The notes under the pieces are model-generated. The model searched no databases and was not told where the DNA came from. It saw only the letters and a list, made by a program, of their open reading frames with translations. Shown piece by piece: positions 1-37,691 of a DNA stretch of 39,617 nucleotides; the first letter of the stretch is position 1, and every line of letters begins with the position of its first letter. A program made the translations under genes and the position numbers. The DNA comes from Clostridiales bacterium CHKCI006 (lineage in GTDB: Bacteria > Bacillota_I > Bacilli_A > Erysipelotrichales > Coprobacillaceae): the NCBI GenBank assembly GCA_900018345.1, contig FCNA01000074.1, positions 1 through 39,617 on the forward strand. Direction: 5' to 3'.

Positions 1-211
1 CATTATAAGAAACCAGTAAACCATGATGTTTGTCCATTTCTAATTCACGCGCCAGATCCATCAGACCGGAAGTAGGTCTTCCTGAAGCCAGGATCAGAAT
101 CGCACCATGCTGCTGGGCTTTTAAGAGCGCTTCTTTTGTTTTAGGGGTAACGACTTTTTGACTGTTCGTTAAGGTCCCATCTACATCCATAATAATAACC
201 CGTATTGACAT
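1..211 (-). CDS. HAD-superfamily (Cof-type) phosphatase, N-terminal part only
   Basis: The gene runs off the left edge, so only about 70 N-terminal residues are visible. They start MSIRVIIMDVDGTLT, which holds HAD motif I (DVDGT, nucleophile and acid Asp), and continue to LASGRPTSG, the motif II region of Cof/HAD-IIB sugar phosphatases. The ATG at 211 follows an AGAGGA ribosome binding site. It lies 21 bases after the PHP phosphatase stop and on the same strand, so it is probably the fourth gene of the EIIB - EIIB/ROK - PHP operon. These enzymes usually dephosphorylate sugar phosphates or related small molecules; the substrate cannot be read from this fragment. Confidence 0.85.
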   Translation of the reverse strand, partial: MSIRVIIMDVDGTLTNSQKVVTPKTKEALLKAQQHGAILILASGRPTSGLMDLARELEMDKHHGLLVSYN

Positions 212-232: not shown

Positions 233-1063
233 TTATAATTCATGAAAGATAGGTTCCATCTTCGCAAAGGTACAATAATGCGTAAAGCCCAATTCTTTCA
301 GTTCTTTTTTTGTCTTCTCGATATAAGCTCCTAAATGTTCTTTTTTATGACTATCACTGCCAATCGTGATGATCTTCCCACCTAAATCCCGATATAAACG
401 CAAGATATCCCGGGAAGGGGTGAGATCTTTTAAACCATAACGATGACTGGATGTGTTGATTTCGATTCCCTTGCCATCGGCAATCACTTTTTTCAGGATG
501 TCGGTAATCTGGTCTTTGAGCTTGTCAAATGGATAAACACCCTCTTCATCATAACGCACGATCAGATCCAGATGACCTAGAACACTGTAATCTCGATAGT
601 GTTCGATCACATCCCTGATTTCCTGATAATAGCGTTCATTATATTCCTTTTGTGTTCTGCCACGCTGAAAATCCTGTGTCCAGAACTCCTTATCTTCAAC
701 CTGATGGCAGGAAAGGATGATAAAATCGAAATCGTACTGAGCAAAAAGCTTTTCATACTGGGGGATCGTATGCATCTGAACCCCAAATTCCATGCCTTCT
801 TTGATTACGATCTGATCCTGATACTTTTCCTTTAAATGCGCTATTTCTTTAAAGTATAACGGATAGTTCACATTCGCCAGCGGCATCCCATCGCGATACG
901 CGATCTTTTCAGGTTCATCCCAGTCTAATTTGATTCCATAATCGACATGATCAGTAAAGCAGATCTCCTGCATTCCCATGGCAATGGCATCTTTGACGAC
1001 ATCCTCCATCAAATAATCGCTGTCATCGCTATAATTCGTGTGTACATGATAATCACAAAACAT
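233..1063 (-). CDS. PHP-domain phosphatase, histidinol-phosphatase (HisK/HisJ) type
   Basis: The 276-residue product opens with the PHP motif I HVHTNYSDD (residues 6-14) and has FTDHVDYG near residue 37, an internal HLDLI motif and a C-terminal GSDSHKKEHLG. These His/Asp residues form the metal site of the polymerase-and-histidinol-phosphatase fold. Length and motif order fit the HisJ/HisK histidinol-phosphatase family. No other his genes are nearby, and the gene sits 4 bases behind the EIIB-ROK fusion gene and before a HAD phosphatase. It may therefore hydrolyse another phosphomonoester, for example a sugar phosphate linked to that operon. The family call is firm; the substrate is open. Confidence 0.85.
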   Translation of the reverse strand: MFCDYHVHTNYSDDSDYLMEDVVKDAIAMGMQEICFTDHVDYGIKLDWDEPEKIAYRDGMPLANVNYPLYFKEIAHLKEKYQDQIVIKEGMEFGVQMHTIPQYEKLFAQYDFDFIILSCHQVEDKEFWTQDFQRGRTQKEYNERYYQEIRDVIEHYRDYSVLGHLDLIVRYDEEGVYPFDKLKDQITDILKKVIADGKGIEINTSSHRYGLKDLTPSRDILRLYRDLGGKIITIGSDSHKKEHLGAYIEKTKKELKELGFTHYCTFAKMEPIFHEL

Positions 1064-1067
1064 TTCT

Positions 1068-2471
1068 TCACTCTCCTAACACTTGAAGGCAATCCATATA
1101 GATGCCTAATAAGATATATTCCTCTAAGATATCTACCTGTTCAAGATGCGGATGATAACCATCCGGTAAATATCGTTTGAGCTCATCTTCAATATCCTGT
1201 ATCTGCCAGACAAGATCGCTGTAGAGGGCAATCGCTTCAGGTGCCAGCGTGCAGACGATCGTTGCCACCAGCTTACCTAAAAGTTCGCGTGTTCCCTCCG
1301 GCGTCTTGCTTAAGGCGACCGGATCTTCCGAAAAAGTCAAAGGTAAGTGTTTTACTTCCCCTGCAAAATGATAATACCCCTGATGCAGCTTGCCGTCAAT
1401 AACAATCCCACATCCCGCATGGCCAAAAATGGGTTGAAAGAGAAAAGCGACAGAAGAATAACGCTGATGCGAGGCATAATAGCCTAACGCCGCATTATTC
1501 ACATCATTCGTAATTCGGATCTTTTGACGATACCGCAGCTGTAAAGCACGTCCCAGATCAAACCCGTCCATCCCCTCGATGATACCGGAAATCAGTTTCC
1601 CATGGTAAGTCAATGCCGGAACCGAAATGCCAATGATAGCCACTTCTGAAAACTGAGCCAGGATCGTATCCAGGACGTCCTCAATATCCTGATAGGTCAG
1701 ATCCTGTTTAATGATCATTCCTGAATAGCGCACTGACTGTTTGGATCCATATAAGCGATAGACCATAAAAACCTGTCCTCCGCTCTTGCAGATGGATAAG
1801 CCTAGCACATAGCAATGAACACGAATGTCTAGTTGGGATTTAAGTTGTTGGGTCTTTTTTAGGGTTGTTTTTGCCTTTGGTAAACCAACCTGTTGGATCA
1901 TATTCACCATGGAAATCGCATCATATGTCGCATAAATAGACGGTGGGATCTTTAATACCAGCTGATTCTTAAGGAGTTTTTGCACTTTTGCGTGCATGTA
2001 GGATAATTGGGGAGCCAGTAAAATGACCTGTTGATCCTCACCCTGATAATACAGATCCGCATATCCCACCGCTCGGATCTCCATTTTCACCTTTTGCAGT
2101 TTGGCTGCTTTTTGCATCTGCATGGCAAAAAAGGAAGTGGTGAGTCCGCCTGAACAACAAAGCAACACCTTAATAGCTCTTTCTTCTTTGAATTGCTGCA
2201 TACATGCCAGCAACTGTTCAAAGAGTTCCTTGGCGTGCGCCAGGTTCTTCATCTGAAAATGAATATAAAAGATATTTTCCTGACTTTGTTTATCAAGCAC
2301 GGTCAGTTCAATGATGCGTTGGGGATTAAAGGTAATGATGCCCTGAACCAATTTGTTTTCGAGCCTGATCCACTCTAGATCTGCCCTGTCAAGCCGACAA
2401 GTCTCGTATGAGTAATGCAAGATCCATTGATAAAAAAGAGAAACGTAAATATCGCTTAAAAATTCGTCCAT
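1068..2471 (-). CDS. PTS EIIB-like domain fused to a degenerate ROK-family domain
   Basis: A 467-residue three-part protein. Residues 1-95 are an undefined N-terminal domain. Residues 100-195 resemble a lactose/cellobiose-type EIIB: KVLLCCSGGLTTSFF keeps the phospho-acceptor Cys (C106) and the loop after it, and LLAPQLSYM matches the MLGPQ strand of EIIB. Residues 215-467 resemble ROK sugar kinases/regulators, with ITNDVNNAALGYY (catalytic-type Asp 323), GCGIVIDGKL and FAGEVKH (E372, H375). The ROK DxGGT phosphate loop and the CxCGxxGCxE zinc motif are not visible, so kinase activity is doubtful and a sensor role is more likely. A paralogue of the first two domains is at 37015. It lies between a lone EIIB and a PHP phosphatase. 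The ribosome binding site is weak. Confidence 0.75.
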   Translation of the reverse strand: MDEFLSDIYVSLFYQWILHYSYETCRLDRADLEWIRLENKLVQGIITFNPQRIIELTVLDKQSQENIFYIHFQMKNLAHAKELFEQLLACMQQFKEERAIKVLLCCSGGLTTSFFAMQMQKAAKLQKVKMEIRAVGYADLYYQGEDQQVILLAPQLSYMHAKVQKLLKNQLVLKIPPSIYATYDAISMVNMIQQVGLPKAKTTLKKTQQLKSQLDIRVHCYVLGLSICKSGGQVFMVYRLYGSKQSVRYSGMIIKQDLTYQDIEDVLDTILAQFSEVAIIGISVPALTYHGKLISGIIEGMDGFDLGRALQLRYRQKIRITNDVNNAALGYYASHQRYSSVAFLFQPIFGHAGCGIVIDGKLHQGYYHFAGEVKHLPLTFSEDPVALSKTPEGTRELLGKLVATIVCTLAPEAIALYSDLVWQIQDIEDELKRYLPDGYHPHLEQVDILEEYILLGIYMDCLQVLGE

Positions 2472-2538: not shown

Positions 2539-2841
2539 TCATTGGGCCAATACCGCTAAGGCTGAAGCAAGCACTTTTGCTCCGTTCATCATACCGTAAT
2601 CTTTCATGTCAATCACATGGATCTTCACTCCCTGTGATGCCTTCTCCAACTGTTTTAAATAATGGCGTACCTGTGGTCCCAACATCACGACATCCCAGTC
2701 GTTCAATATATTTAAAGCCTGACTGACCGGCACCGACAGAATCTCAACTTCTAGCCCCTGCGCTTTGGCAGCTGTTTCCATGCGTGTCACCAATAAACTG
2801 GTGGACATTCCTGCGTTGCAAACTAATAAAATTTTCTTCAT
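2539..2841 (-). CDS. PTS lactose/cellobiose-family EIIB component
   Basis: 100 residues, the normal length for a free EIIB of the lactose/cellobiose/chitobiose family. The N-terminus MKKILLVCNAGMSTS carries the phospho-cysteine (C8) in its P-loop-like turn, and VVMLGPQVRHYL matches the second conserved strand. It would accept phosphate from an EIIA and pass it to sugar bound by an EIIC. No EIIA or EIIC is adjacent; the only EIIC in the window is at 13115. It is the first gene of a minus-strand operon with the EIIB-ROK fusion 67 bases on, and has a good AGGAGGAG ribosome binding site. Confidence 0.9.
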   Translation of the reverse strand: MKKILLVCNAGMSTSLLVTRMETAAKAQGLEVEILSVPVSQALNILNDWDVVMLGPQVRHYLKQLEKASQGVKIHVIDMKDYGMMNGAKVLASALAVLAQ

Positions 2842-2894: not shown

Positions 2895-2925
2895 TTAAAA
2901 AAAAGTCTTTTTGACAAGACTTTTT
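2895..2925 (-). terminator. Intrinsic terminator after galE
   Basis: On the minus strand the stem AAGTCTT/AAGACTT is followed by eight T residues. It lies between galE and the EIIB gene and separates the two minus-strand units. Confidence 0.75.
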
Positions 2926-7848: not shown

Positions 7849-9763
7849 TTTTCGTTCCGTTAGGCAGATCGGTATCGATCGTGACTAAGGAAATTTTCTT
7901 TTTCTTTGATCCCGCTAACAGCATGCCCTGAGATTCTACTCCTCTGAGCTGCGCTGTTTTGAGGTTGGTCACAACGACGACTTTCTTACCTACCATCTCT
8001 TCTGGTGTGTAAGAAGAAGCAATGCCGCTGACGATCTGACGGGTATGATCGCCCAGGTCAACCTGTGAGACCAGCAGCTTATCGGCTTTTGGATGTTTCT
8101 CACATTTTAATACGGTGCCTACCTTTAACTCGACTTTCGCAAAGTCATCGATCGTAATTTCTGGCAATTCACTTTTTGGTGCCTCTTTTTGAGGTTCTTC
8201 TTTTTCCAGGTTAGCCAAAACCACTTTAGGATCCAGACGCATAAATAATGGTTCTGGTTTTTCGGTCACTTTTGTACCGGAAGCATATAAACCAAAAGTC
8301 GTCAGATCCAGATAATCCCGTTCATTCGTATTGATCTGATCCAGGGTCTTTTCGCTGGTTTCAGGTAAGAATGGCGCTAAACAGATGGCCGCAAAACGAA
8401 TGCTTTCCACCAGATTATAGAGCACCGTCTGTAAACGAGGCAGGGTGTCTTCACTCTTGGCTAAGATCCAAGGGGTTGTCTCATCGATGTATTTATTTGT
8501 TCTGCGAAGTAAAGTAAAGACTTCATCGATGCCATCGGCCACTCTTAACTTATCCATCTTTTCTGCCAGACGTTTTGGTGTCTCGAGGGCAACGGCCTTT
8601 AACTCATCATCAACAGGTTCATTGACCCCTGTATTGGTCACAACACCACCAAAATATTTATTGGACATGGCAATCGTTCGGTTGACCAGATTACCTAAGA
8701 TATTCGCCAGATCCGAATTGATGCGTTCAATCAATAATTCATAGGTAATATTTCCATCGTTATCAAAAGGCATTTCGTGCAGGACAAAGTAACGCACTGC
8801 ATCTACCCCAAACTGATTGACTAAATCATCGGCATAGATCACATTTCCCTTGGATTTGGACATCTTGCGATCACCCATCAGTAGCCATGGATGACCAAAG
8901 ACCTGTTTTGGCAAAGGCAGATCCAAAGCCATCAGCATGATTGGCCAGTAGATCGTATGGAAACGAATGATATCTTTACCGATCAGGTGCAGATCAGCAG
9001 GCCAGTACTTCTCAAACATTGGATCACTATTGCCATCCAGATCATAACCTAAACCGGTAATATAGTTGGTCAGGGCATCGATCCAGACATAGACGACGTG
9101 TTTTGGATCAAAGTCAACCGGAATTCCCCACTTAAACGTCGTACGGGAAACACAGAGATCCTGCAGGCCCGGTAAGAGGAAGTTATTCATCATCTCATTT
9201 TTACGAGATTCAGGCTGAATAAATTCAGGATGCGTATTGATGTAATCAATCAGACGTTGACTATATTTACTTAATTTAAAGAAGTAAGCTTCTTCTTTTT
9301 CCAAATGCACGGGACCGCCGCAGTCCGGACATTTACCATCGACCAGCTGGCTTTCTGTGAAGAAAGACTCACAGGCCGTACAATAATGACCTTCATAGTA
9401 ACCTAAATAGATATCTCCCTGGTCATAAAGTTTCTTAAAGATCTTCTGAACTTGTTTTTCGTGATCTGGATCTGTGGTACGAATAAATTTATCATAGGAA
9501 GTGTTCATCAAATCCCAGATACGTTTAATTTCCCCGGCAATACCATCGACATAAGTCTTTGGATCGACACCGGCCTGGTTAGCTTTTTCTTCAATTTTCT
9601 GACCATGTTCATCCGTTCCTGTCTGGAAACGCACGTCATAGCCCTGTGCTCTTTTAAAACGGGCAATGCTGTCAGCTAAGACAATCTCATAAGTATTCCC
9701 GATATGCGGTTTACCTGAGGTATAAGCAATTGCGGTCGTAATATAATACTTTTCTTTATTCAT
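7841..9763 (-). CDS. metG: Methionyl-tRNA synthetase
   Basis: 640 residues from the ATG at 9763, which follows GGAGAG. It charges tRNA-Met in the cytoplasm. The class I signature HIGN is at 20-23; the CxxC pairs of the zinc knuckle (CTACESF, CPDCGG) lie near 126-145; KMSKSKGNV is present; and the C-terminal about 100 residues are the OB-fold tRNA-binding/dimer domain (KVELKVGTVLKCEKHPKADKLLVSQVDLG). The open frame extends 31 residues further upstream, but that extension reads through the T-box antiterminator and terminator, so it is not coding. Regulation is by the T-box leader directly upstream. Confidence 0.97.
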   Translation of the reverse strand: MNKEKYYITTAIAYTSGKPHIGNTYEIVLADSIARFKRAQGYDVRFQTGTDEHGQKIEEKANQAGVDPKTYVDGIAGEIKRIWDLMNTSYDKFIRTTDPDHEKQVQKIFKKLYDQGDIYLGYYEGHYCTACESFFTESQLVDGKCPDCGGPVHLEKEEAYFFKLSKYSQRLIDYINTHPEFIQPESRKNEMMNNFLLPGLQDLCVSRTTFKWGIPVDFDPKHVVYVWIDALTNYITGLGYDLDGNSDPMFEKYWPADLHLIGKDIIRFHTIYWPIMLMALDLPLPKQVFGHPWLLMGDRKMSKSKGNVIYADDLVNQFGVDAVRYFVLHEMPFDNDGNITYELLIERINSDLANILGNLVNRTIAMSNKYFGGVVTNTGVNEPVDDELKAVALETPKRLAEKMDKLRVADGIDEVFTLLRRTNKYIDETTPWILAKSEDTLPRLQTVLYNLVESIRFAAICLAPFLPETSEKTLDQINTNERDYLDLTTFGLYASGTKVTEKPEPLFMRLDPKVVLANLEKEEPQKEAPKSELPEITIDDFAKVELKVGTVLKCEKHPKADKLLVSQVDLGDHTRQIVSGIASSYTPEEMVGKKVVVVTNLKTAQLRGVESQGMLLAGSKKKKISLVTIDTDLPNGTKIS

Positions 9764-9787
9764 ATAACGGCTCTCCTTTCTTGTAAT

Positions 9788-10002
9788 AAAAAAACGTCCT
9801 GTAAAGGACGATTTGCTCGCGGTACCACCTTTATTCATACTTGCGTATGCGCTCAAATCCTTAACGCGGATGAACGTTTATTCCTAGACGTGTTCAGAAT
9901 AACTGCTCCCGGACCATCTTCATCGCTTGCTTCGTCTGGCTCGCACCAACCGCCAGATCTCTTGACCCACTTAAGATTACTCTTCCGTTCCCTGCATTTT
10001 GC
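9788..10002 (-). promoter_or_regulatory. T-box riboswitch leader of metG
   Basis: On the minus strand the conserved T-box AAAGGTGGTACCGCG (about 9816-9830) is followed by the terminator hairpin CGTCCT/AGGACG (9795-9810) and seven T residues (9788-9794), about 25 bases before the start codon. Upstream, the Stem I region contains AGATGG, giving a candidate AUG specifier codon in line with the Met gene it controls. Uncharged tRNA-Met would stabilise the antiterminator and allow metG expression. The specifier placement is my reading without folding. Confidence 0.93.
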
Positions 10003-10727: not shown

Positions 10728-11525
10728 CTAAAAATTCACATTCATCTCACAACGACTCGCATAGGCGAGACTAATCAGACTGGCAATGACCATCAGCGGG
10801 TATGGATGACTGGCATAATCATGCCGGCTGTGATAGCGAATATAGGTATCGACATATTCCAGAGCTGAGTGTTCATTGCCGGTAACCATATAAATTTTAG
10901 GTTTATGCAGCGTATCTTTAAAAGGTTTCACACGAGCGAAGACACGTTGAAAATAAGTGGCCATATCTGAGAAAATGATAATCAGATCAGACTCACTGAC
11001 ATGGCTGAGATAATCGACCTGATCAGCGAAACGCAGGCTCGTATAGATGATCTTACGGCTCGTCTGCAGATCGTACTGCAGGCTCAAGGCAGCGTTTTCC
11101 GAATGCATATAGCCAAAAGCGGCCACTTTTTCATAGCGTTCAATATCCTCAGCTAGCTGGTTGATCCTACTTTCCATATCCGGTGTTACCATGTAAGTCA
11201 AATTTTCAATGACACTAGTCAGATAAGAATCGACAAGCGAACGTCCGAGCATCGTTTGATAGTGAAACTTATTGGTTGCCTGTTTTGATTCCATTTGAAA
11301 ACGAATCAGCTGAATTTTTAATTCATTAAAATCTTTAAAACCAATCTCACGGCAAAAACGCGAGATACTAGAATTAGCCACAAAACAATGTTTAGCGAGA
11401 TCGCTAAGCGTACAATCTTCTAAAGTTTGTAGATGATCGATGATATATTTAGCGATACGATAATTATTCGAATCCCTCGGCTCACTGTTGAGCGTCGCTA
11501 ATAAAATGATAATCAGATTGAACAT
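10728..11525 (-). CDS. RpiR-family transcriptional regulator
   Basis: 265 residues from the ATG at 11525, chosen because it follows GGGGAGGTG at good spacing; the frame extends 19 codons further without support. The N-terminal RpiR helix-turn-helix is clear (TLSDLAKHCFVANSSISRFCREIGFKDFNELKIQL, about 40-75). The C-terminal half is a SIS sugar-phosphate-binding domain with AAFGYMHSENAALSLQYDL and SDLIIIFSDMATYF. RpiR proteins sense phosphosugars. With a NagB-like enzyme and a PTS EIIC 700-1600 bp away it is the obvious candidate regulator of those genes. The RDD gene lies 53 bases upstream on the same strand. Confidence 0.88.
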   Translation of the reverse strand: MFNLIIILLATLNSEPRDSNNYRIAKYIIDHLQTLEDCTLSDLAKHCFVANSSISRFCREIGFKDFNELKIQLIRFQMESKQATNKFHYQTMLGRSLVDSYLTSVIENLTYMVTPDMESRINQLAEDIERYEKVAAFGYMHSENAALSLQYDLQTSRKIIYTSLRFADQVDYLSHVSESDLIIIFSDMATYFQRVFARVKPFKDTLHKPKIYMVTGNEHSALEYVDTYIRYHSRHDYASHPYPLMVIASLISLAYASRCEMNVNF

Positions 11526-11578
11526 CAGGTCACCTCCCCATCGGTTACCTTTATTTATAGCATGTTCAACTCTGACTT

Positions 11579-12151
11579 TCAATCTTTTTTAACGACAATC
11601 GTTCCTGCTAATAAATCATGAAAACATCGACTCTTTTGGTTCATATAGGCATAACCGATGGAAAGCAGGGTCAAACCATAAGAAAGGTATGTCCAGGGAT
11701 GAACCAGGAAAGACAAACCGAACAGCGGCATCAGGTTACGAAGCTGGCTGGCCATTAAAATAATACCACCTTCTAGAAAGGTCGCTCCAACCAGCTCACG
11801 CAAGCATAATTGCAGGGGACTGACCTCTGTGCCGTCCTGTTTTTTGACGATGACCTTACACCATTTTTTGCCCAGGGTCTGACCAGGGAAAATAAATGAC
11901 GGAATGACCACATAGTAAATGACCCCGACCAACAGGCCATAAATGCCTAGTGCCAGACCTGTCCCAAAATCATATTGTGTCAGATCAAACATCTCAGCCT
12001 GTAAGTATTCACCTTGACGAAAGTAAAAAGTAATGGGGATCACTGCAATCATTTGGCCTAAATACCAGTCAATCAACATCGCAAAAAAACGACGCATTCT
12101 GACTTCTGCTACATCAATTCCTTTTTGTTTGGATATTTTTCTTTTTGCCAT
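11579..12151 (-). CDS. RDD family membrane protein
   Basis: 190 residues with the RDD-family hallmark near the N-terminus (VRMRRFFAMLIDWYLGQMIAVIP, about 17-40), a second membrane segment (GLALGIYGLLVGVIYYVVIPSFIF), the conserved PGQTLGKKWCKVIVKKQDG loop, and the C-terminal CFHDLLAGTIVVKKD. Three or four transmembrane helices are apparent. Members are small multi-pass proteins, some reported as Na+/H+ antiporters, most uncharacterised. It probably shares a transcript with the rpiR-type gene downstream. Confidence 0.85.
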   Translation of the reverse strand: MAKRKISKQKGIDVAEVRMRRFFAMLIDWYLGQMIAVIPITFYFRQGEYLQAEMFDLTQYDFGTGLALGIYGLLVGVIYYVVIPSFIFPGQTLGKKWCKVIVKKQDGTEVSPLQLCLRELVGATFLEGGIILMASQLRNLMPLFGLSFLVHPWTYLSYGLTLLSIGYAYMNQKSRCFHDLLAGTIVVKKD

Positions 12152-12209: not shown

Positions 12210-12932
12210 TTATAAACGTTCGTAATCTTTTGGGTCTAATAAGCTCGCCGCTTCTTTATCACAGATGACCGTCACGTTTGGATGCAGTTTTAAAACAGTT
12301 GCAGGTAATTCATCGGTAATTGGTGAATCCAGAACTTGTTTTAAGATTTCTGCTTTATGTTTACCATTAACAATCATTACTAAGTGTTTCACTTTCATCA
12401 AGCTCTTAGGTCCCATGGTAATGCTGTAAGGGAGATCCGGTTTTTCTGGGTAACCTGGGTTAACTGCATTTTTCGTTTTACGATCCATGATATAAGTATA
12501 GCTATCCATTGGTGTACATCTTGGGCAGTTGCTGCAGAAATGTCCATCAAAGCCAAGTCCGATCACCATTACATCGATACCGCCGGCTTCACTGATTTCC
12601 TTATCATAAGTCATCCAGTTTTCCATCGTCGTCACGTGAATTCTTTCATCAGGGATATGCGCATCCTTGAAGAATAATTCCTGCATCTCCGTCCAGTTTG
12701 GTCCTGGTTTATCCTGACCGATATAAGGGGCTTCATCAAACAGATAATATTGAACATCCTTGAATTCTTCCTGATCGCGTACGATTGGAGCCATCATCTC
12801 GTACAACATTTTTGGTGAACGTCCTGATGTCAGTGAAATATTCACACGTTTATCCTGCATCATAGCACCAAGCAACACATACATGGCATATTCGCTCATT
12901 TGTTTTTCGGTTTCTTTAATAATCAGTTTCAT
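12210..12932 (-). CDS. NagB/6-phosphogluconolactonase-family isomerase or deaminase with a changed active site
   Basis: 240 residues, the length of glucosamine-6-phosphate deaminase. The phosphate loop LTSGRSPK (34-41), FDEAPYIG (65-72), GLGFDGHF (125-132) and the end motif LKLHPNVTVICDKEAA follow NagB order. In NagB the motif DGHIAFNEP supplies a catalytic triad Asp-His-Glu; here it reads DGHFCSNCP, so D129 and H131 remain but the Glu is Cys136. The residues around it (CSNCPRC) are Cys-rich. This could be a relative acting on another aldose/ketose phosphate rather than classical NagB. It is divergent from a PTS EIIC, with RpiR downstream, which fits sugar catabolism. Confidence 0.75.
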   Translation of the reverse strand: MKLIIKETEKQMSEYAMYVLLGAMMQDKRVNISLTSGRSPKMLYEMMAPIVRDQEEFKDVQYYLFDEAPYIGQDKPGPNWTEMQELFFKDAHIPDERIHVTTMENWMTYDKEISEAGGIDVMVIGLGFDGHFCSNCPRCTPMDSYTYIMDRKTKNAVNPGYPEKPDLPYSITMGPKSLMKVKHLVMIVNGKHKAEILKQVLDSPITDELPATVLKLHPNVTVICDKEAASLLDPKDYERL

Positions 12933-12961
12933 AATGTCCTCCTTGCTTTTTTGATACTTTT

Positions 12962-13001
12962 ATTATAGTCTTTTCGTTAGCATTGTCGCTTTTTTTCGAC
13001 A
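12962..13001 (-). promoter_or_regulatory. NagB-like gene promoter and dyad
   Basis: Minus strand TATAAT (12962-12967) with a weak -35 GCGACA (12984-12989), 16-bp spacer. The -35 is inside the dyad TGTCG/CGACA (12984-12988 and 12997-13001), so a protein bound there would block this promoter. Confidence 0.5.
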
Positions 13002-13014
13002 AAAAGAAAAACCT

Positions 13015-13054
13015 TTCGATTTTTTGGAAAAAACTTCGATGTTTTGGAAAAACA
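13015..13054 (+). promoter_or_regulatory. Two tandem 20-bp repeats upstream of the EIIC promoter
   Basis: Each unit reads TTCGAT, then (T/G)TTTTGGAAAAA, then two further bases (13015-13034 and 13035-13054), with only a few differences. They end at the base before the -35 box (13055). Two direct sites on adjacent helix turns upstream of -35 suit an activator or a cooperative regulator; the nearby RpiR protein is the natural candidate. Confidence 0.55.
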
Positions 13055-13084
13055 TTGCCTCTACGGTAAAGAAAAACCTATAAT
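13055..13084 (+). promoter_or_regulatory. Promoter of the PTS EIIC gene
   Basis: TTGCCT (13055-13060), an 18-bp spacer and a perfect TATAAT (13079-13084), about 30 bases before the start codon. Confidence 0.7.
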
Positions 13085-13114
13085 GCCCCTAGATGAAGAA
13101 AGGAGGAGTTTCAA

Positions 13115-14482
13115 ATGAACTTCATGGACAAATTCTCGGCGTTAGCTGATCGTACCTTGGTCCCTATCGCCAATAAACTCGGAAGTCAAAAACATTTAGC
13201 TTCCATTCGTGATGGTATGGTTGTCGCAATCCCGCTTTCTATTCTAGGCGGTATCTGTTTAATTATCTCAACCCCACCATTTACCCCGGACACACTGCCT
13301 GATTGGGGATTTTTCTCAGATCTTTTAATGGGATGGTATAATTGGGCACAGGCCAATAAAGCCGCTATTCAGCTACCATATAATATGACAATGTCACTGA
13401 TGGGCTTATTTGTCTGCTTCTCGATTTCATATCATTTAGCACAGCGCAGCAAGGTCCCTGCCTTGAATGCAGCTGTTGTTTCGACCGCTATCTTCTTAAT
13501 GGTCGCAGCTCCTGTCACTTCAGCTGTACCTATGTCTAGCATTACCGAGGGAACAGCGATTGCTGATCTTACCGCAGCTAACTATATCCCCGCTGCTTAC
13601 CTGGACGCCAAAGGTATCTTTACAGCAATCATTGTTTCCATCGGTTGTGTAGAATTAATGAGCTTCTTATTAAAAAAAGATATTCGTTTCAAATTGCCTG
13701 ATGGTGTTCCACCAGCAGTCACTTCTTCTTTTGACGCCATCATTCCTTTAGTGGTTTGTGTGGTTGTCTTCTATGCTGTATCTTTAGTTGTTCAATCATT
13801 GAGTGGTGAACTTCTGCCAAGCATGATCATGACGATCCTTGCTCCAGCGATTACGGGTCTGGATTCACTGCCTGGTATCTGCTTGATCACCATCATTGCT
13901 CAGGTCTTCTGGTTCTTTGGTTTACATGGTGCCAGCATTACGCAGCCAATTCGTTTACCATTCATGCAGATGTATCTGATTGAAAATATCGCCGCATTCA
14001 CAGCTGGTGAACCACTGGCTCACTATTTCGTACAGCCTTTCTGGTCTTACGTGATTACCTTAGGTGGTGGAGGTGCTACACTTGGTCTATGTATCCTCTT
14101 ATTAACATCTAAATCGAAAGAGTTAAAAACATTAGGTAAGATCAGTATTGGTCCTGCCATCTTCAATATCAACGAACCAATCATCTTTGGTCTGCCAATG
14201 GTACTGAACCCATTGATGATGATTCCATTTATTTTCGTTCCTGTCGTCAACTCAATCATTGCCTACGCACTGATGGCTTTAAATATTGTCGGCAAGGGTG
14301 TCTTTGAAACCCCATTTACCACACCTGCTCCTTTAGGTGCTGCGATTGGTTTCATGGACTTCAAAGCAGCTATTATGGTCGTTGGACTGATTCTCTTAGA
14401 TATCGCGCTCTACTATCCATTCTTCAAAGTCATGGAAAAACAGAAGATCGCTGAAGAGAACGGTTTAGCTAACGTAGAATAA
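13115..14482 (+). CDS. PTS EIIC, lactose/cellobiose family
   Basis: 455 residues with about ten hydrophobic segments and the EIIC hallmarks of the cellobiose/lichenan group: LVPIANKLGSQKHLASIRDGMVVAIPL at the start, FWFFGLHGASITQPI, and GPAIFNINEPIIFGLPMVLNP (the NEP sugar-site motif). It transports and phosphorylates a beta-glucoside, chitobiose or similar sugar across the membrane. AAGGAGGAG precedes the ATG. It is monocistronic with its own promoter and terminator: no EIIA or EIIB is adjacent. The EIIB at 2539 could serve it. It is divergent from the NagB-like gene. Confidence 0.92.
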   Translation: MNFMDKFSALADRTLVPIANKLGSQKHLASIRDGMVVAIPLSILGGICLIISTPPFTPDTLPDWGFFSDLLMGWYNWAQANKAAIQLPYNMTMSLMGLFVCFSISYHLAQRSKVPALNAAVVSTAIFLMVAAPVTSAVPMSSITEGTAIADLTAANYIPAAYLDAKGIFTAIIVSIGCVELMSFLLKKDIRFKLPDGVPPAVTSSFDAIIPLVVCVVVFYAVSLVVQSLSGELLPSMIMTILAPAITGLDSLPGICLITIIAQVFWFFGLHGASITQPIRLPFMQMYLIENIAAFTAGEPLAHYFVQPFWSYVITLGGGGATLGLCILLLTSKSKELKTLGKISIGPAIFNINEPIIFGLPMVLNPLMMIPFIFVPVVNSIIAYALMALNIVGKGVFETPFTTPAPLGAAIGFMDFKAAIMVVGLILLDIALYYPFFKVMEKQKIAEENGLANVE

Positions 14483-14491
14483 AAAATGAGA

Positions 14492-14528
14492 CCCCAGATA
14501 CCTAACCCCCCGGTATCTGGGGTTTTTT
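14492..14528 (+). terminator. Intrinsic terminator after EIIC
   Basis: An 11-bp perfect stem CCCCAGATACC/GGTATCTGGGG (14492-14502 with 14512-14522) followed by six T residues. Confidence 0.95.
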
Positions 14529-14556
14529 ATGCCTAAAAGAGGATCATATAAGCACT

Positions 14557-14586
14557 AAAAAAGGATCAAGAGCGTGCTCTTAATCC
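14557..14586 (-). terminator. Intrinsic terminator of the gal operon
   Basis: The minus-strand stem of about 11 bp (arms 14563-14573 and 14576-14586, GGATtAAGAGC paired with GCTCTTgATCC) is followed by TTTTTT. It overlaps the galK stop codon. Confidence 0.85.
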
Positions 14587-15860
14587 ATAACTTTGATACC
14601 GCCATATTGTCGTATCTTGAGAATATGGCAGGATCCCTTACCAAAATAATGTTCTATCTCCTGCTGATAGGTTTTGACATAATCATCTTCCACGAAGGCC
14701 TGAATAGTTCCCGCGAAGCCTCCGCCATGAACGCGGCATACCCCGTGATCCCCTAAGATGACCTCGCTCAAGGCTAGCGCCAGTGAGACAGCCTGCTGGT
14801 TGATATTCTGATTGGAATAAACGTTCTGTAGATATTTAAACGAACTATCTCCAGACGCCCGTATGGTATTTTTAAATGCCCTAAAGTCTTGATTTTCCAG
14901 AGCTGCACAGGCTTGTCTGACCCGTTTATTCTCATTGAAAAGATGCAGGGCTCTTAAGACGGCCCGATCACTGGTCGCCTCACGGACATCGCTTAGCTGA
15001 CTAAGGAAATCATCCTCATCTACTTCACGCAGGACCTCTTCGTTAAAGAAGGAGGCCACTTGTTTCATTTCAGCTGGAATCGATGCATAATCATCGGTCA
15101 GATCGGCATGACTCGCATGGACATCGACGATACAAAGACTATGCTTGAATTCACTAAAGTCCACATGCACTTTTTCAACCACAGGGGCTTCCGTGTTCTT
15201 AAAATCGATATGAATCAATCCGCCGACAGAGCAGGCACATTGATCCATCAGACCACAAGGTTTGCCAAAATATACATTCTCACTATACTGTCCAATTTTA
15301 GCTATCGTGACCGGATCTAATGGCTTTTCATGATAAAGACCGGAGAGAACAGTTCCGATCATGACCTCAAAAGCCGCTGAAGACGAAAGCCCCGATCCCT
15401 GCAGAACATCACTGGTCATATAGGCCTCGAAGCCGCCAATGGCCAGACCTAATTCCTGAAAACGTGCCAGTGTGCCGCGAATCAATGCCTCTGACGTTTC
15501 TTTCTCCGCTTCTTTTGGGGCAAGATCCGTTAATTCGATAGCCTGAATATCATAGTCATCGGATTGGATCTTGATATGATGATCATGCTTGGCAACAACG
15601 GCAATGATATCTAAATTGATGGCCGTCGCTAACACTTCCCCATGCTGATGATCTGTATGATTCCCACACACTTCACTGCGTCCTGGGGTACTGAAGATGG
15701 CCACCTCTTTATCACCATAGAGGGAGATAAATGTATCGATTGCCTGCATGTAACGCGCCTTTTGGGCATCCGCTCTTGCGGTGTCGAGATAGATTTCGGT
15801 AAACTGTTGATAATATTGATTATGGGCTATTTCCTGTTTTAAAAGACTTGCTTTTTTCAT
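14580..15860 (-). CDS. galK: Galactokinase
   Basis: 426 residues. The GHMP-kinase galactokinase signature STPGRSEVCGNHTDHQHG (57-74) includes the galactose-binding residues; the ATP loop LQGSGLSSSAAFE is at 153-165; the C-terminal motif is VHGGGFAGTIQAFV. It phosphorylates alpha-galactose to galactose-1-phosphate. A usual galactokinase has R-x-N-L-I-G-E-H; here the segment reads RSEVCGNHTD, as in several Erysipelotrichia/Lactobacillales GalK. It is the last gene of galT-galM-galK, and its ATG overlaps the galM stop by 4 bases, implying translational coupling. Confidence 0.95.
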   Translation of the reverse strand: MKKASLLKQEIAHNQYYQQFTEIYLDTARADAQKARYMQAIDTFISLYGDKEVAIFSTPGRSEVCGNHTDHQHGEVLATAINLDIIAVVAKHDHHIKIQSDDYDIQAIELTDLAPKEAEKETSEALIRGTLARFQELGLAIGGFEAYMTSDVLQGSGLSSSAAFEVMIGTVLSGLYHEKPLDPVTIAKIGQYSENVYFGKPCGLMDQCACSVGGLIHIDFKNTEAPVVEKVHVDFSEFKHSLCIVDVHASHADLTDDYASIPAEMKQVASFFNEEVLREVDEDDFLSQLSDVREATSDRAVLRALHLFNENKRVRQACAALENQDFRAFKNTIRASGDSSFKYLQNVYSNQNINQQAVSLALALSEVILGDHGVCRVHGGGFAGTIQAFVEDDYVKTYQQEIEHYFGKGSCHILKIRQYGGIKVMD

Positions 15861-16873
15861 TTTGTGATGACCTCAAATGTATAGGATGTTACCGCATCAT
15901 ATACATCGCCTTTCCTTAAAATTGTATCCGGATGTTCCTGTAGATGGATGGCATCGGGTAAATACTGTGTTTCAATACAAACGGCATCCTGATTGGCATA
16001 GATAGCGCCATTTTTTCCCTGCCGATCATTGAGATAATTTGCCGAATAGATCTGCGCCGTCGGTAAACTCGTGCTGACAGTCAGCTGACGCCCGCTCTCA
16101 GGATGATAAAGGACTACCTGATTTTCTTTAGCGGACAATATAAACGGATGATCCAGACCATGCGCAATCTCTAATTGTTCATCTGACTGGTTAAGCACTT
16201 GACCAAGAAGCCGTGCTTCTCTTAGATCAAAGACACTGCCGGTCACGTCGCGTATCTTGCCAGTAGGTAGTCCATCCCCATCGACACAGGCAAACTGGTC
16301 CGCTTTAACCATCAGCCAATGAGAGTGAATGCTTTCCTGATGACCGGATAAGTTGAAATAAGAATGATTGGTGATATTGACTAGCGTATCTTCCGTGGTG
16401 GTCGCCCGATAATGTAAGATTAGCTGATGATCCTTGAGAATATAATCCGCCACTAGATCCAGTCTGCCGGGATACCCTTCTTCTCCATCCTCGCTGACAT
16501 AGTGAAGACGTAAAGTGGTCTCATCAACGATCGTGGCTTCAAAGAACTGATAGCTGAATCCTTTCAGACCACCGTGCAGATGATTAGGACCATTGTTGAC
16601 AGCAAGATGGTAAGTCTTGCCATTGAGCGTAAATGTTCCTTGCCTGATACGGTTGGCAACACGACCTACTAAGGCCCCTAAATAACCATCTTCCTGCTGA
16701 TAAGAAGTCAGCTTGTCATATCCTAAGACCACATCGGCAAATTCGCCATGGCGATCTGGTGCATAGAGGTTCAGGATCGTGCCGCCGTAATTAGAAACAA
16801 CGACCTGCAGCTTATCGTTAGAAAGCTGATAAATATCCATGCCGGACGGATCGTGGCGCACTAATTTAATCAT
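15857..16873 (-). CDS. galM: Aldose 1-epimerase (galactose mutarotase)
   Basis: About 338 residues. GalM motifs are visible: NYGGTILNLYAPDRHG, LGALVGRVANRIRQGTF, NNGPNHLHGGLKGF (conserved His), VNITNHSYFNLSGH (conserved His) and CIETQYLPDAIH (catalytic Glu region). It equilibrates beta- and alpha-galactose for GalK. I place the start at ATG 16873, nine bases after GGAG; a GTG two codons upstream is closer to that site and less likely. The start lies within the galT stop region and the stop overlaps the galK start. Confidence 0.95.
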   Translation of the reverse strand: MIKLVRHDPSGMDIYQLSNDKLQVVVSNYGGTILNLYAPDRHGEFADVVLGYDKLTSYQQEDGYLGALVGRVANRIRQGTFTLNGKTYHLAVNNGPNHLHGGLKGFSYQFFEATIVDETTLRLHYVSEDGEEGYPGRLDLVADYILKDHQLILHYRATTTEDTLVNITNHSYFNLSGHQESIHSHWLMVKADQFACVDGDGLPTGKIRDVTGSVFDLREARLLGQVLNQSDEQLEIAHGLDHPFILSAKENQVVLYHPESGRQLTVSTSLPTAQIYSANYLNDRQGKNGAIYANQDAVCIETQYLPDAIHLQEHPDTILRKGDVYDAVTSYTFEVITK

Positions 16874-18365
16874 TTTCACACACTCCTGTCACAAAAGCCT
16901 CAAAGGCAGCGATGCCTTCCTCGTCCATCTTAAAGACACCGGCATCTTCCAGCACTTCCACAAACTTCATGGTCAACGCTTCGCGCAAATGATGATCGAT
17001 ATTTTCCTCAGTCCAGCCTTTGGTCTTTAATTCCTCATACCATGCCTGATGTTTCGCCATCTCTGGATGATCCTGCATCTGACGACAACCTAAAAGGCAT
17101 TCTTTTAAGATTTGGATCTCATCTTTCAAACGCGCTGGCAGAACGGCCAGTCCCATGACTTCAATCAGTCCGATATTTTCCTTTTTGATGTGATGTAAAT
17201 GGGCATGTGGATGGAAGATCCCATCAGGGTATGCCTCCGTCGTGCGATTGTTGCGTAAAACCAGATCCAGCTGATACATGCCATTTTTCTTACGGGCAAT
17301 CGGCGTGATCGTGTTATGTGGTACCTCCCCGCTATAAGCCAGAATATCCAGCTCCGGATTACTGTATTGCTTCCAGGCTTCAAGTACCTTGCAGGCAAAG
17401 GCAATCGCTTGATAACGGTTGGTCGTATTCACTCTTAGGGTCGTTAATGGCCAATGTAACAGTTCAATGGCAAGATCCGGATAGTCTTTAGGATGAAGTG
17501 TCTTCAAGACTTCCGCTCCCTCGATTGGGAAAGTATAATGTCCACCCTGATAATGGTCATGTGTAAGAATCGAACCGCCGACAATCGGCAGGTCCGCATT
17601 CGACCCTAACATGTAATGTGGAAAAAGATCAACGAATGACAGCAAGTGCTTAAACGTCGCTTCGTTAATGACCATTGGGATATGTTTTTCATTCAGCACG
17701 ATACAGTGCTCATTGTAATAGACATAAGGTGAATATTGTAAATAGTAACGTTCACCATCCAGATCAAGCGGAATAATGCGATGATTCTGACGTGCCGGCT
17801 TATTCAAGTTCCCGCTAAAACCGACATTTTCTTTACATAACAGACATAAAGGATAACTGCTGTTTTTGACAGATTTCGCTTTCGCTATCTCTTTTGGATC
17901 CTTTTCGGGTTTAGATAAGTTGATCGTGATCTCAAAAGTCCCATATCGATAGGCTTGTTTAAAGCGAATATTTTTGTCTGTACGACTCTTACGAATGTAG
18001 TTAGATGCAATTGACAGACGATAAAAATAATCGGTTGCCTTTTGTGGTGACAAGGCATATGCCTGTTTAAAATGGTCCAATACCTCACTAGGCCGTGGCA
18101 TCAGACAGTTCATGATCCTGGTATCAAAAAGATCCTTCATGGTCGTCGTATCTTCCACCAGTCCCTGCGCTGTCGCATAGACAAGCAGGTTGTCCAGGAT
18201 CGGGGTCGCTGTTTCCAGGGTTTCTTCGATGTCTTCCCAGCTGAACTCATCCATTCCCAGTAAATCTAATAATAAGTTGACCGCATAATCCCGATCGGCT
18301 TTGTCGAGCATTCCCTGCTGACAGCCAAAATGGATGAGGCGATTGATCTCGTGATTCATATTCAT
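16866..18365 (-). CDS. galT: UDP-glucose--hexose-1-phosphate uridylyltransferase, class II
   Basis: 499 residues, the length of the long Firmicutes GalT class, which differs from the about 350-residue E. coli type. Motifs include CLLCKENVGFSGNLNKPARQNHRIIPL, HDHYQGGHYTFPIE and HPHAHLHHIKKENIGLIEVMGLAVLPARL. It exchanges UMP between UDP-glucose and galactose-1-phosphate. The start at 18365 (MNMNHE) follows GGACGGAG; the open frame continues 65 codons upstream across the promoter region without support. It is the first gene of galT-galM-galK. Confidence 0.95.
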   Translation of the reverse strand: MNMNHEINRLIHFGCQQGMLDKADRDYAVNLLLDLLGMDEFSWEDIEETLETATPILDNLLVYATAQGLVEDTTTMKDLFDTRIMNCLMPRPSEVLDHFKQAYALSPQKATDYFYRLSIASNYIRKSRTDKNIRFKQAYRYGTFEITINLSKPEKDPKEIAKAKSVKNSSYPLCLLCKENVGFSGNLNKPARQNHRIIPLDLDGERYYLQYSPYVYYNEHCIVLNEKHIPMVINEATFKHLLSFVDLFPHYMLGSNADLPIVGGSILTHDHYQGGHYTFPIEGAEVLKTLHPKDYPDLAIELLHWPLTTLRVNTTNRYQAIAFACKVLEAWKQYSNPELDILAYSGEVPHNTITPIARKKNGMYQLDLVLRNNRTTEAYPDGIFHPHAHLHHIKKENIGLIEVMGLAVLPARLKDEIQILKECLLGCRQMQDHPEMAKHQAWYEELKTKGWTEENIDHHLREALTMKFVEVLEDAGVFKMDEEGIAAFEAFVTGVCEND

Positions 18366-18390
18366 TGTTTCTCCGTCCCTTCTTTTCCTT

Positions 18391-18419
18391 ATTTTATCAT
18401 TTTCACTACTTAATTGAAA
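18391..18419 (-). promoter_or_regulatory. Candidate promoter of the galTMK operon
   Basis: Minus strand TTTCAA (18414-18419), a 17-bp spacer and TAAAAT (18391-18396), about 25 bases ahead of galT. Both boxes are imperfect, so activation or repression is plausible. Confidence 0.45.
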
Positions 18420-18435
18420 CCCTTTCCTTCCCACC

Positions 18436-18463
18436 TTGACATTTTTATAAATAATTCTATAAT
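18436..18463 (+). promoter_or_regulatory. Promoter of the acetyltransferase pair
   Basis: Perfect TTGACA (18436-18441), a 16-bp spacer and perfect TATAAT (18458-18463), 34 bases ahead of the first GNAT gene; back-to-back with the gal operon. Confidence 0.85.
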
Positions 18464-18496
18464 GAGTGTAAATATACAAAGAGAGGAGCGAAGAAA

Positions 18497-19054
18497 ATGC
18501 GCGATTTAGGAACAGAAACAATTGAAACCAAACGTTTGATCTTGCGCCAATTCCAGGCAAATGATGCCGCGGACATGTACTATCATTACTGCAGCGACCC
18601 AGAAGTCACCCGTTTTATGACCTGGCCTGCACACCGGAATCTGGAGATAACCAACCGCGTCCTGAGCTCCTGGTTAGATCAGTATGATGAAAAGACCTAT
18701 ATGTGGGCAATCGTATCTAAAGATATTCATGAGGTCATCGGCACCATCAGTGTCACACAGATGGATACAAAAGCAGAAAGCTGCGAGATCGCTTATGCCA
18801 TTGGTCAAAACTATTGGAATCAGGGTTATACTACTGAAGCCCTCAAAGCAGTCATGGCCTTCTTATTTGAACAGGTAGGTGTCAATCGGATTTGGGCCTG
18901 TCATGATACACGTAATCCGGCCAGTGGTGCCGTCATGAAAAAATGCGGCATGGTCTATGAAGGGCGCTTACGTCAAGCCATCAAGCTCAATGCCGGCATC
19001 GGCGATCTGGATACGTATGGGATCTTAAAATCAGAATGGACAAAGGAGGCTTAA
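18497..19054 (+). CDS. GNAT acetyltransferase, RimJ/RimL type (copy 1)
   Basis: 185 residues with the RimJ/RimL-type opening IETKRLILRQFQANDAADMYYHY, a central strand pair (HEVIGTISVTQ, CEIAYAIGQNYWNQGYTTEALKAVM) where the NQGYTTEA turn corresponds to the acetyl-CoA motif, and the tail NRIWACHDTRNPASGAVMKKCGMVYEG. It N-acetylates an unknown substrate, perhaps a protein N-terminus or small amine. It is followed after 3 bases by a homologue of identical length. A GGAG site precedes the ATG. Confidence 0.9.
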   Translation: MRDLGTETIETKRLILRQFQANDAADMYYHYCSDPEVTRFMTWPAHRNLEITNRVLSSWLDQYDEKTYMWAIVSKDIHEVIGTISVTQMDTKAESCEIAYAIGQNYWNQGYTTEALKAVMAFLFEQVGVNRIWACHDTRNPASGAVMKKCGMVYEGRLRQAIKLNAGIGDLDTYGILKSEWTKEA

Positions 19055-23970: not shown

Positions 23971-23997
23971 AAGATCAGCTCCGGCTGGTCTTTTTTT
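23971..23997 (+). terminator. Intrinsic terminator after the reductase gene
   Basis: Stem AAGATCAGC/GCTGGTCTT (23971-23979 with 23984-23992, one G-U) with a 4-base loop, running into a seven-base T run. It overlaps the end of the convergent C39-like gene. Confidence 0.8.
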
Positions 23998-24664
23998 GAT
24001 CTTCGATCGCAACCGCCTGACAGCCCAGTTCTTCATAGCGGCGCTGTACCAGCGCTTTGGGATACTTTTCCAGCTGTCCTGTCATCGGATCATTCAGATA
24101 ATAATACGTGGCATCATAGCCTGTTAAGACCACACAGTGTTCCCCGGCAATCCAAGTAAAGGTTTCGCCGTTTTTTAACTGCCAGCGATTCCCTTCCTGG
24201 GATGCCTTCATTTCCATGGTCACCCAGATCAAAACAGGTTTATCCTTACAAATATACGTATCGCAAAGTGTCTCTAAGTCAGTGACACTGACTAACTGCG
24301 CACGACACAAACGGGAATGATCCTGAATCATTTGTGCGATGACCGGTGCATAACAACCATAACTATTCGACTCAAACGGATTACCTACAAAGACCTGATG
24401 CGGATCCGGACCATATAAAGTCCCATTTTTCATATAAGGACATTGGCATTCCAGCCAGTTGGCAGCCACTTCAGTAGGCTGTACGTCTTCACCGTAATAT
24501 TGTAAAACCATGGTAGCTGCGGTCACTTCACAACCTGTGGGCAATTCTGGATACTGAGAAAGCAAGGGAACATCTAACTGATATTCCTCAGGTACCATCT
24601 GAATCGGCGAACAGCCTGCCAATAAATAGCAAACCAGCCATAAAACGGTCACTATGGTTTTCAT
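23975..24664 (-). CDS. C39-like (peptidase_C39_2) putative lipoprotein (copy 1)
   Basis: 229 residues from the ATG at 24664, behind GGAGGTGG. The signal peptide ends in a lipobox LLAGC, so Cys18 is probably lipidated and the protein membrane-anchored outside the cell. The papain-like C39 fold is suggested by PTGCEVTAATMVLQYYG (nucleophile C45), AGEHCVVLTGYD (H176) and YYYLNDP (N191-D192). Such proteins are typically secreted cysteine peptidases or inactive relatives with unknown targets. The following gene upstream is a homologue. Confidence 0.85.
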   Translation of the reverse strand: MKTIVTVLWLVCYLLAGCSPIQMVPEEYQLDVPLLSQYPELPTGCEVTAATMVLQYYGEDVQPTEVAANWLECQCPYMKNGTLYGPDPHQVFVGNPFESNSYGCYAPVIAQMIQDHSRLCRAQLVSVTDLETLCDTYICKDKPVLIWVTMEMKASQEGNRWQLKNGETFTWIAGEHCVVLTGYDATYYYLNDPMTGQLEKYPKALVQRRYEELGCQAVAIEDQKKTSRS

Positions 24665-24738
24665 ATCTAACCACCTCCGCAATGATTCTAACAGAGGCAT
24701 GTATCCTGATTGTCGGAAAGTTGTATCGTTTCTGTATC

Positions 24739-24763
24739 AAAAAAACCGGTTAATTCACCGGTT
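24739..24763 (-). terminator. Intrinsic terminator after C39-like copy 2
   Basis: The minus-strand stem AACCGG/CCGGTT (24744-24749 with 24758-24763) is followed by seven T residues and overlaps the stop codon. Confidence 0.8.
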
Positions 24764-29279: not shown

Positions 29280-29552
29280 TCAGGAAATAATCATGTGAAT
29301 TTCATCGTAGCTCATCGAATAACTTTTCTGAATCTTCTCGATAATTTCCGTTTGGCTTAAATTGAGGCTTCTTAAGACTTCTGCCATCTTGAGGATGCCA
29401 TTGACCTTTTCTTCTTCTCGGCCTTCAATTCGACCTTCAATTAGGCCCTCAATTCGGCCTTCTTTTTTTCCCTCATCTTTGCCAATAGCTAAATACTTTT
29501 GCTTTGCTTCATATTCCATGACTTCCATCATTGCTTCCCCAAATGTCGGCAT
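29280..29552 (-). CDS. Stand-alone RpnS-like C-terminal domain, cassette 3
   Basis: 90 residues from ATG 29552, seven bases after GAGGAGGG. It is nearly identical to the C-terminal 78 residues of the Rpn nuclease at 29983, but with three extra four-residue repeats after EGKKEG (RIEG, LIEG, RIEG). The protein is highly charged and helical, and has no nuclease domain. The frame is open 20 codons further upstream, across the hairpin, but the strong ribosome binding site favours the shorter start. By analogy with E. coli Rpn, where the separately made C-terminal domain binds and inhibits the full-length nuclease, this would be an extra antitoxin copy. Inhibition here is an inference. Confidence 0.75.
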   Translation of the reverse strand: MPTFGEAMMEVMEYEAKQKYLAIGKDEGKKEGRIEGLIEGRIEGREEEKVNGILKMAEVLRSLNLSQTEIIEKIQKSYSMSYDEIHMIIS

Positions 29553-29643
29553 ATCGCTTCCCTCCTCTGAAGGTATAGGCGAGGCAATCTTACTTCGCCT
29601 ATTTCTAATCACACGCAGGTTTGCCCGTTTGTTTTGTCCATGC

Positions 29644-29892: not shown

Positions 29893-29982
29893 ATCGCTTC
29901 TCTCCTCTGAAAGTATAGGCGAAGCAATCTTACTTCGCCTATTTCAAATCACACGAAGGCTTGTTCGTTTGTTTTGTCCTGA

Positions 29983-37008: not shown

Positions 37009-37016
37009 TTGGCTTT
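36992..37016. terminator. Bidirectional terminator between convergent genes
   Basis: Stem AAAGCCAAT/ATTGGCTTT (36992-37000 with 37008-37016) serves the membrane-protein pair on the plus strand and the EIIB-like gene on the minus strand. It overlaps both stops. Confidence 0.75.
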
Positions 37017-37629
37017 AGTGTACGCTCAATACCTCATTGAGCACATGATTGACATTGCCTGTCGCAAAATCTAACGTATCGATCTTCATGAGCTTACTGC
37101 CATACCTCTCTTTAAGCTCCGGATATTTATAGGCAATCTGAGGAGCCAGTAAGATAACATCATAATCTTGTTGGACTTGATCTAAATCCAAATAGCTCAC
37201 GGCATCAATCGTGATATTCTCTTTTAATGGGGCCAATGCTTCTTGCATCAAATAAGCAAAATAAGAAGTGGTCAATCCTGATGTACAGCTTAATAAGATT
37301 TTCAACTGCTCATGGCTAGAAACTTTTGACGCATCTAATGACACCTCTTCGGTATGTCCGCATAAGAAATGAAAGAATGAGCGAATATGATCGACAATGA
37401 TCTTCATATCTGTCATTTCAAAATGCAGATAAAATACATTTTCGTCCGTTCGTTTATCCTCAATGGCCAGCTCTACGACGTTGTGCTCATGAAAATGAAT
37501 ACGCCCACGATATGGATCACTGCAGAAGTAAACACTGCAGGTATCCGGGCAAGCCTTGGCATGGCACATACCTGCTACCCACTGATAGATCAAAGACGGA
37601 AATAAATCATAATAAACTTCGTTCATCAT
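37015..37629 (-). CDS. EIIB-like protein with an N-terminal accessory domain
   Basis: 204 residues from ATG 37629 behind GGAGGAAGC. Residues 1-100 match the N-terminal domain of the EIIB-ROK fusion at 1068 (DLFPSLIYQWVAG against VSLFYQWILHY; VELAIEDKRTDENVFYLHFEM against IELTVLDKQSQENIFYIHFQM). Residues 109-204 match its EIIB-like domain: ILLSCTSGLTTSYFA keeps the Cys (C115) and LLAPQIAYKYP the second strand. There is no ROK part. This proves that the first two domains form a portable unit. The lack of EIIC/EIIA neighbours suggests a phospho-signalling rather than transport role. It lies behind DUF3737. Confidence 0.75.
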   Translation of the reverse strand: MMNEVYYDLFPSLIYQWVAGMCHAKACPDTCSVYFCSDPYRGRIHFHEHNVVELAIEDKRTDENVFYLHFEMTDMKIIVDHIRSFFHFLCGHTEEVSLDASKVSSHEQLKILLSCTSGLTTSYFAYLMQEALAPLKENITIDAVSYLDLDQVQQDYDVILLAPQIAYKYPELKERYGSKLMKIDTLDFATGNVNHVLNEVLSVH

Positions 37630-37661
37630 TGCTTCCTCCTTTTTTGGTCCCGAATAATAGG

Positions 37662-37691
37662 ATATGCAGCCTTTGGGCTGCATATACCTTT
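37662..37691. other. Perfect hairpin between DUF3737 and the EIIB-like gene
   Basis: Arms ATATGCAGCC and GGCTGCATAT (37662-37671 with 37676-37685), loop TTTG. A T run follows on the plus strand but not on the minus strand, the direction of both flanking genes. It could be an antisense terminator or a processing/attenuation hairpin in the intercistronic region. Confidence 0.6.

Follow-up and report, generated by a model that had tools for sequence, protein, structure and literature searches.

The window analysed here, a stretch of 39,617 nucleotides from Clostridiales bacterium CHKCI006, encodes a protein in which an N-terminal domain, a lactose/cellobiose-type EIIB domain and a ROK fold devoid of its ATP motif are joined in a single chain. 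We propose, giving the proposal an even chance, that this protein descends from a ROK repressor and serves, through protein contacts, as a sugar sensor that is phosphorylated by the PTS and has no catalytic role; here we infer phosphorylation, ligand and target. A PTS-read sugar sensor had already been suggested by a first-pass annotation, and is the best-supported reading, given the invariance of the putative phospho-cysteine loop and a ROK domain in common with HTH-ROK regulators.

Domain organization of the putative sensor

The gene and its recognizable parts are the following:

1068..2471 (-), sensor gene, 467 aa, N-terminal domain, EIIB and ROK (intact ORF, Pfam, predicted structure)
2178..2471 (-), N-terminal domain, residues 1-98, alpha-beta5-alpha, with no Pfam family (predicted structure, conservation)
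2259..2261 (-), H71 codon in the N-terminal domain, same residue in 128 of 128 relatives (alignment)
1875..2177 (-), EIIB domain of lactose/cellobiose type, residues 99-199 (Pfam, predicted structure)
2154..2156 (-), C106 codon, predicted phospho-cysteine, 128 of 128 (alignment)
1071..1835 (-), ROK fold lacking the ATP motif, residues 213-467 (Pfam, predicted structure)
1776..1802 (-), site at which the DxGGT loop has been lost, GLSICKSGG, residues 224-232 (alignment with control ROK proteins)
1497..1508 (-), NDVN, residues 322-325, sugar-site Asn and Asp kept (alignment)
1347..1361 (-), GEVKH, residues 371-375, Glu kept across the family, His in the window copy only (alignment)

The fusion of EIIB-like and ROK-like domains reported in the first-pass annotation was borne out by Pfam searches, which placed PTS_IIB (PF02302) at residues 101-168 (36.5 bits against a cut-off of 23.6) and ROK (PF00480) at residues 261-382 (45.4 bits against 22.9). 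Structure prediction (mean pLDDT 88.8 over 467 aa, pTM 0.76, from a 73-sequence alignment) yielded both folds. The EIIB part, residues 99-199, matched 2wy2 with a Z of 18.5 and an rmsd of 1.3 over 101 aligned residues, and IIB-cellobiose (1iib) with a Z of 17.9. The ROK part, residues 213-467, matched 2hoe with a Z of 22.9 and an rmsd of 2.8 over 247 aligned residues; MecR2 (4ija, Z 22.6) was also among the closest structures, and Lmo0178 (5f7p) and the Mlc structures (1z6r, 3bp8) scored 21.0 and 19.6-19.7. Besides PTS_IIB and ROK, no Pfam domain was detected in the protein at E up to 10, PRD included. No NCBIfam model fitted the whole protein, with ROK kinase models scoring far under their cut-offs and the lactose/cellobiose EIIB transporter subunit model (TIGR00853) reaching 58 bits against a cut-off of 110. 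As originally described, the sensor contains no HTH detectable by Pfam or in the predicted structure, in which the linker at about residues 196-220 has no helix.

The initial two-domain description holds for EIIB and ROK but left out residues 1-98, which form another domain, one of whose histidines never varies. When folded separately, this region adopted an alpha-beta5-alpha arrangement (pLDDT 93.0) with an immunity protein as its top structural match (Z 9.2) and a further match to frataxin CyaY (1ew4; Z 8.5, 86 aa, rmsd 2.9) that had no supporting sequence match. Foldseek returned nothing under E 0.001 for these residues, and Pfam nothing. The modelled domain can hence be described as frataxin-like in arrangement, and homology to frataxin is not claimed.

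Conservation of key residues and loss of the ATP motif

The family alignment encompassed 128 distinct proteins, of which 95 are full-length and 33 have the N-terminal and EIIB domains (N-EIIB) but no ROK. H71, C106, P154 and Q155 are identical in all 128, and the Cys loop pointed out in the first reading, which around C106 reads CSGGLTTS, is thereby confirmed as a family feature. ROK sugar kinases are characterised by an ATP motif (DxGxT) and a zinc motif (GHx9-11CxCGx2G(C/H)xE), and ROK sugar binding by residues equivalent to N516, D517 and E566 of GNE (definitions from PMC2742894). The sensor keeps the latter as N322, D323 and E372, present in 94, 88 and 91 of the 95 full-length proteins, respectively; N325 is found in 94, and Asn replaces D323 in five. 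The proposed retention of the sugar site is thus upheld across the family for these residues and not for the His of GEVKH, since H375 occurs in one of 48 family members, the window copy itself, with Tyr or Phe in most others. The D.GGT ATP motif is absent from all 95 full-length relatives, none of which has an intact ATP motif anywhere in its sequence, in agreement with the earlier view that the site was lost.

For comparison, we drew from five genomes of the lineage 30 ROK proteins selected for carrying a D/E-x-GGT/S loop. None of these 30 controls contains the CxCG zinc motif, and the His of their GExGH is likewise variable. The CxCGxxGCxE zinc site is indeed missing from the sensor, as first noted, but because the likely active kinases of the lineage lack both the zinc motif and a fixed His, neither argument is diagnostic, and zinc-motif loss was dropped as a sign of a dead ROK domain. 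A CxCG string seen in two of the 95 relatives (TCSCGLTTG) lies inside the EIIB loop and was excluded from the zinc-site count. Loss of the ATP loop is therefore the sole feature dividing the sensor class from the likely active ROK kinases of the lineage. Solo HTH-ROK relatives, which have no EIIB partner, also lack the ATP loop and retain the sugar-site Asp in 22 of 22 cases. Of 50 positions at which conservation reaches at least 90%, the window copy differs at seven (e.g. G286A and D148Q); judged by these positions, it is one of the more divergent members of the family.

Distribution of the family

Relatives were retrieved using the alignment as query, a single-protein query having returned none. 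Matches were present in 54 of 60 related genomes and, across the phylum, in 23 of 392 sampled genomes, mostly within the window's own family. The full-length proteins so obtained, at least 95 distinct ones, come almost entirely from the Coprobacillaceae/Erysipelotrichales, including Longibaculum, Massilimicrobiota, Thomasclavelia, Faecalibacillus, Eggerthia, Sharpea and Solobacterium MAGs (Coprobacillaceae and neighbours). A class-wide scan with the N-terminal domain alone gave matches confined to the window's family and one sister-family genome. In a plasmid search no record covered 80% of the sensor, and the matches listed concerned the ROK part only. None of the open-licence papers searched describes an EIIB-ROK fusion, and the family, large and undescribed, is absent from the libraries searched.

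The source genome (98.75% complete) encodes seven ROK kinases and three fused forms, with no HTH-ROK of the sensor-related class found. The N-EIIB part is present in about seven copies, three with ROK and about four without it, alongside one EIIA-Lac gene and 20 PTS_IIB domains. One of the copies without ROK lies in the window, outside the sensor operon, and adjoins a gene read as DUF3737-like:

37015..37683 (-), 222-aa N-EIIB paralogue that lacks ROK

Probable origin from HTH-ROK regulators

The ROK domains nearest to that of the sensor are those of short HTH-ROK proteins, and in at least five genomes a gene encoding N-EIIB overlaps or abuts an HTH-ROK gene (L055, L056, L057, L058 and L059, with spacings of -14, 3, -1, -4 and -29 bases); L158, with a spacing of 0, is probably a sixth. 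The HTH of L059 is recognised as HTH_24 at 8e-7, and the HTH can be aligned across most split and solo forms, with STGGRKSKxY at its end in many of them. In the ROK tree, split and fused forms are grouped at 100/99, with the solo HTH-ROK regulators outside. Common descent with HTH-ROK regulators is thus shown at the sequence level. Given these nearest neighbours and abutting gene pairs, the sensor is probably the product of a fusion in which the HTH was lost, the suggested order of events being an HTH-ROK regulator, a coupled gene pair, and then fusion with HTH loss, once or twice. Regarding that number, the unconstrained tree needs two changes and monophyly of the fused forms gave an AU p of 0.27, which fits one or two fusions alike, and the claim of a single origin was dropped. 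An apparent additional split pair in L054 was rejected, as it corresponds to a fused sensor gene (8452-9860, minus strand) with a frameshift in the EIIB-ROK linker. The existence of both a coupled pair and a fusion is good evidence that the N-EIIB and ROK parts act together. The sensor looks like a former repressor whose DNA-binding part gave way to phosphate-signal input.

Operon structure and genomic neighbourhood

The sensor gene is the second in an operon with the order EIIB, sensor, PHP phosphatase and HAD, and its flanking genes do not include EIIC or EIIA:

2539..2841 (-), solo lactose/cellobiose-family EIIB, first gene of the operon, 67 bases upstream of the sensor
233..1063 (-), PHP phosphoesterase of the HisJ family, 4 bases downstream of the sensor
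1..211 (-), HAD phosphatase (Hydrolase_3), truncated at the contig end

Upstream, reading the sequence by eye shows a hairpin with T's after it (about 2897-2924, minus strand), absent from the scan-tool listing, which would end a galE-like gene. Similar arrangements occur in the same region of the tree, in L090 (EIIB, RbsD, acetyltransferase, sensor and PHP, with RpiR facing) and L095 (EIIB, sensor, PHP, RpiR), and the order in L172 and L174 is sensor, HTH-ROK, PHP, acetyltransferase and HAD. A HisJ-family PHP gene lies at most two genes away from six of the 95 fused genes, against 0.8 expected from the more distant genes of the same loci (P about 2e-4, an optimistic value given this background and the relatedness of the 95 genes). 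Solo EIIB genes near fused genes (five of 95 against 2.3 expected) were not significantly enriched, nor were RpiR or HAD genes near the 95. Neighbours vary, with no fixed operon for most of the 95, and most adjoin neither a PHP nor a solo EIIB gene. The presence of acetyltransferase, mutarotase-like and phosphatase genes nearby would, by inference only, be consistent with the disposal of surplus sugar phosphates.

Several further associations were observed. In 16 of 26 loci (L207-L224, e.g. L208:1580-3440), a solo HTH-ROK gene is closely followed in its operon by a TrpH-like PHP gene, a conserved regulator-phosphoesterase pair that matched no described system. In L236, L240, L242, L244 and L245, the N-EIIB gene abuts or overlaps one that is maltose-acetyltransferase-like; in L231, L235, L237, L241 and L243 its neighbour is metallophosphoesterase-like (PPP-type), and an RpiR-type regulator is often present as well. 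Elsewhere in the window, a lactose/cellobiose-family EIIC lies by galactokinase, aldose epimerase and GalT-like genes (12210-18560), together with an RpiR-type regulator (10728-11582). Two near-identical genes at 29280-30930 (-), apparently a recent duplication, have C-terminal EGR-rich repeats and resemble Rpn/PD-(D/E)XK transposase-like proteins, and two tandem genes at 23975-25439 (-) were read from sequence as encoding secreted C39-like cysteine peptidase-type proteins.

Relation to known systems

The closest analogue of the sensor is Mlc together with the EIIB of PtsG, for which a complex structure exists (PDB 3bp8). Both systems present a ROK fold, and the regulatory rather than kinase role and the direct ROK-EIIB contact of the latter are presumed in the sensor. 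Mlc is bound, and thereby sequestered, by dephosphorylated EIIB (PMC10100716), and its oligomerisation is driven by the O-domain, which corresponds to the C-lobe (PMC2742894). Unlike the Mlc/PtsG system, the sensor has its EIIB in cis, lacks an HTH and carries an extra N-terminal domain; its EIIB is of the lactose/cellobiose type, that of PtsG of the glucose type. EIIB(Glc) and lactose-type EIIB are different folds, and the parallel is therefore functional only.

The ROK-fold regulators MecR2 and Lmo0178 share the ROK fold (Z 22.6 and 21.0), but no EIIB, and no N-terminal domain like that of the sensor, is known to us in either. The chitobiose and cellobiose EIIB proteins ChbB (2wy2) and 1iib have the same fold and Cys loop, whereas the EIIB of the sensor sits between two fused domains with no transporter partner beside the gene. 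EIIB-like domains with Cys also occur in PRD regulators such as MtlR, in which the Cys is conserved (PMC8560693); MtlR has a galactitol-type EIIB, and the sensor has ROK in place of PRD and HTH. Those HTH-ROK regulators of this lineage whose genes precede a TrpH-like PHP gene have the same ATP-less ROK domain, but only they have an HTH and only the sensor has an EIIB.

Proposed mechanism and alternative readings

In the proposed mechanism, the single lactose-type EIIA of the genome would phosphorylate C106 when its sugar runs low, and the ROK pocket would take a hexose or hexose phosphate. The PTS-phosphorylation and sugar signals would converge via an EIIB-ROK contact, modelled on that of EIIB(Glc) and Mlc. 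Because the HTH is gone, output would take place through protein contact instead of DNA, and the first candidate partners of the window copy would be the PHP and HAD phosphatases of the operon, or an RpiR regulator.

Another candidate for the target of the HTH-less ROK domain is an HTH-ROK repressor, whose DNA binding would be blocked in mixed dimers gated by C106 phosphorylation. ROK proteins dimerise via the C-lobe (PMC2742894), MecR2 (Z 22.6) is called an antirepressor in a title cited in PMC4856308, the N-EIIB gene is coupled with an HTH-ROK gene in at least five relatives, and HTH-ROK, PHP, acetyltransferase and HAD genes closely follow the fused gene in two Solobacterium MAGs. The source genome, however, shows no HTH-ROK of this class, so that such an anti-repressor cannot be the general mechanism, and we regard it as unlikely. 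It is quite improbable that the protein is a transporter EIIB in working order whose C-terminal extension is inert or regulatory. The EIIB loop and fold are intact, but EIIC and EIIA are not adjacent, the operon already has a solo EIIB beside the sensor, the TIGR00853 score (58 against 110) is short of its cut-off and the pocket residues of ROK are conserved.

The retention of the sugar-site Asp in 88 of 95 proteins that have lost the ATP loop, with a phospho-donor domain in cis, could also point to a sugar kinase with phosphorylated C106 as phosphate donor instead of ATP. Yet the EIIB-less HTH-ROK relatives, also without ATP loop, keep this Asp in 22 of 22 cases, and its retention is hence explained by ligand binding; Asn takes its place in five of the 95, and such a kinase is extremely improbable. 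We hold very doubtful a phosphorelay within one chain, in which H71 and C106 would exchange phosphate and ROK would either read the resulting state or use phosphocysteine, not ATP, on sugar. That the gene is a functionless relic in decay is scarcely credible: the window copy is divergent and the L054 relative frame-shifted, but 95 distinct proteins maintain open frames and invariant residues, and the source genome alone harbours three fused paralogues.

The ROK and EIIB partners, which in E. coli meet in trans as a repressor and an EIIB domain, stand in one chain across this whole gut-bacterial lineage, which has lost the DNA-binding part and gained a domain with an invariant histidine. The presence in the source genome of about seven N-EIIB copies, three of them with ROK, against a single lactose-type EIIA suggests that PTS signalling has a broad, undescribed layer in which no transport is involved.
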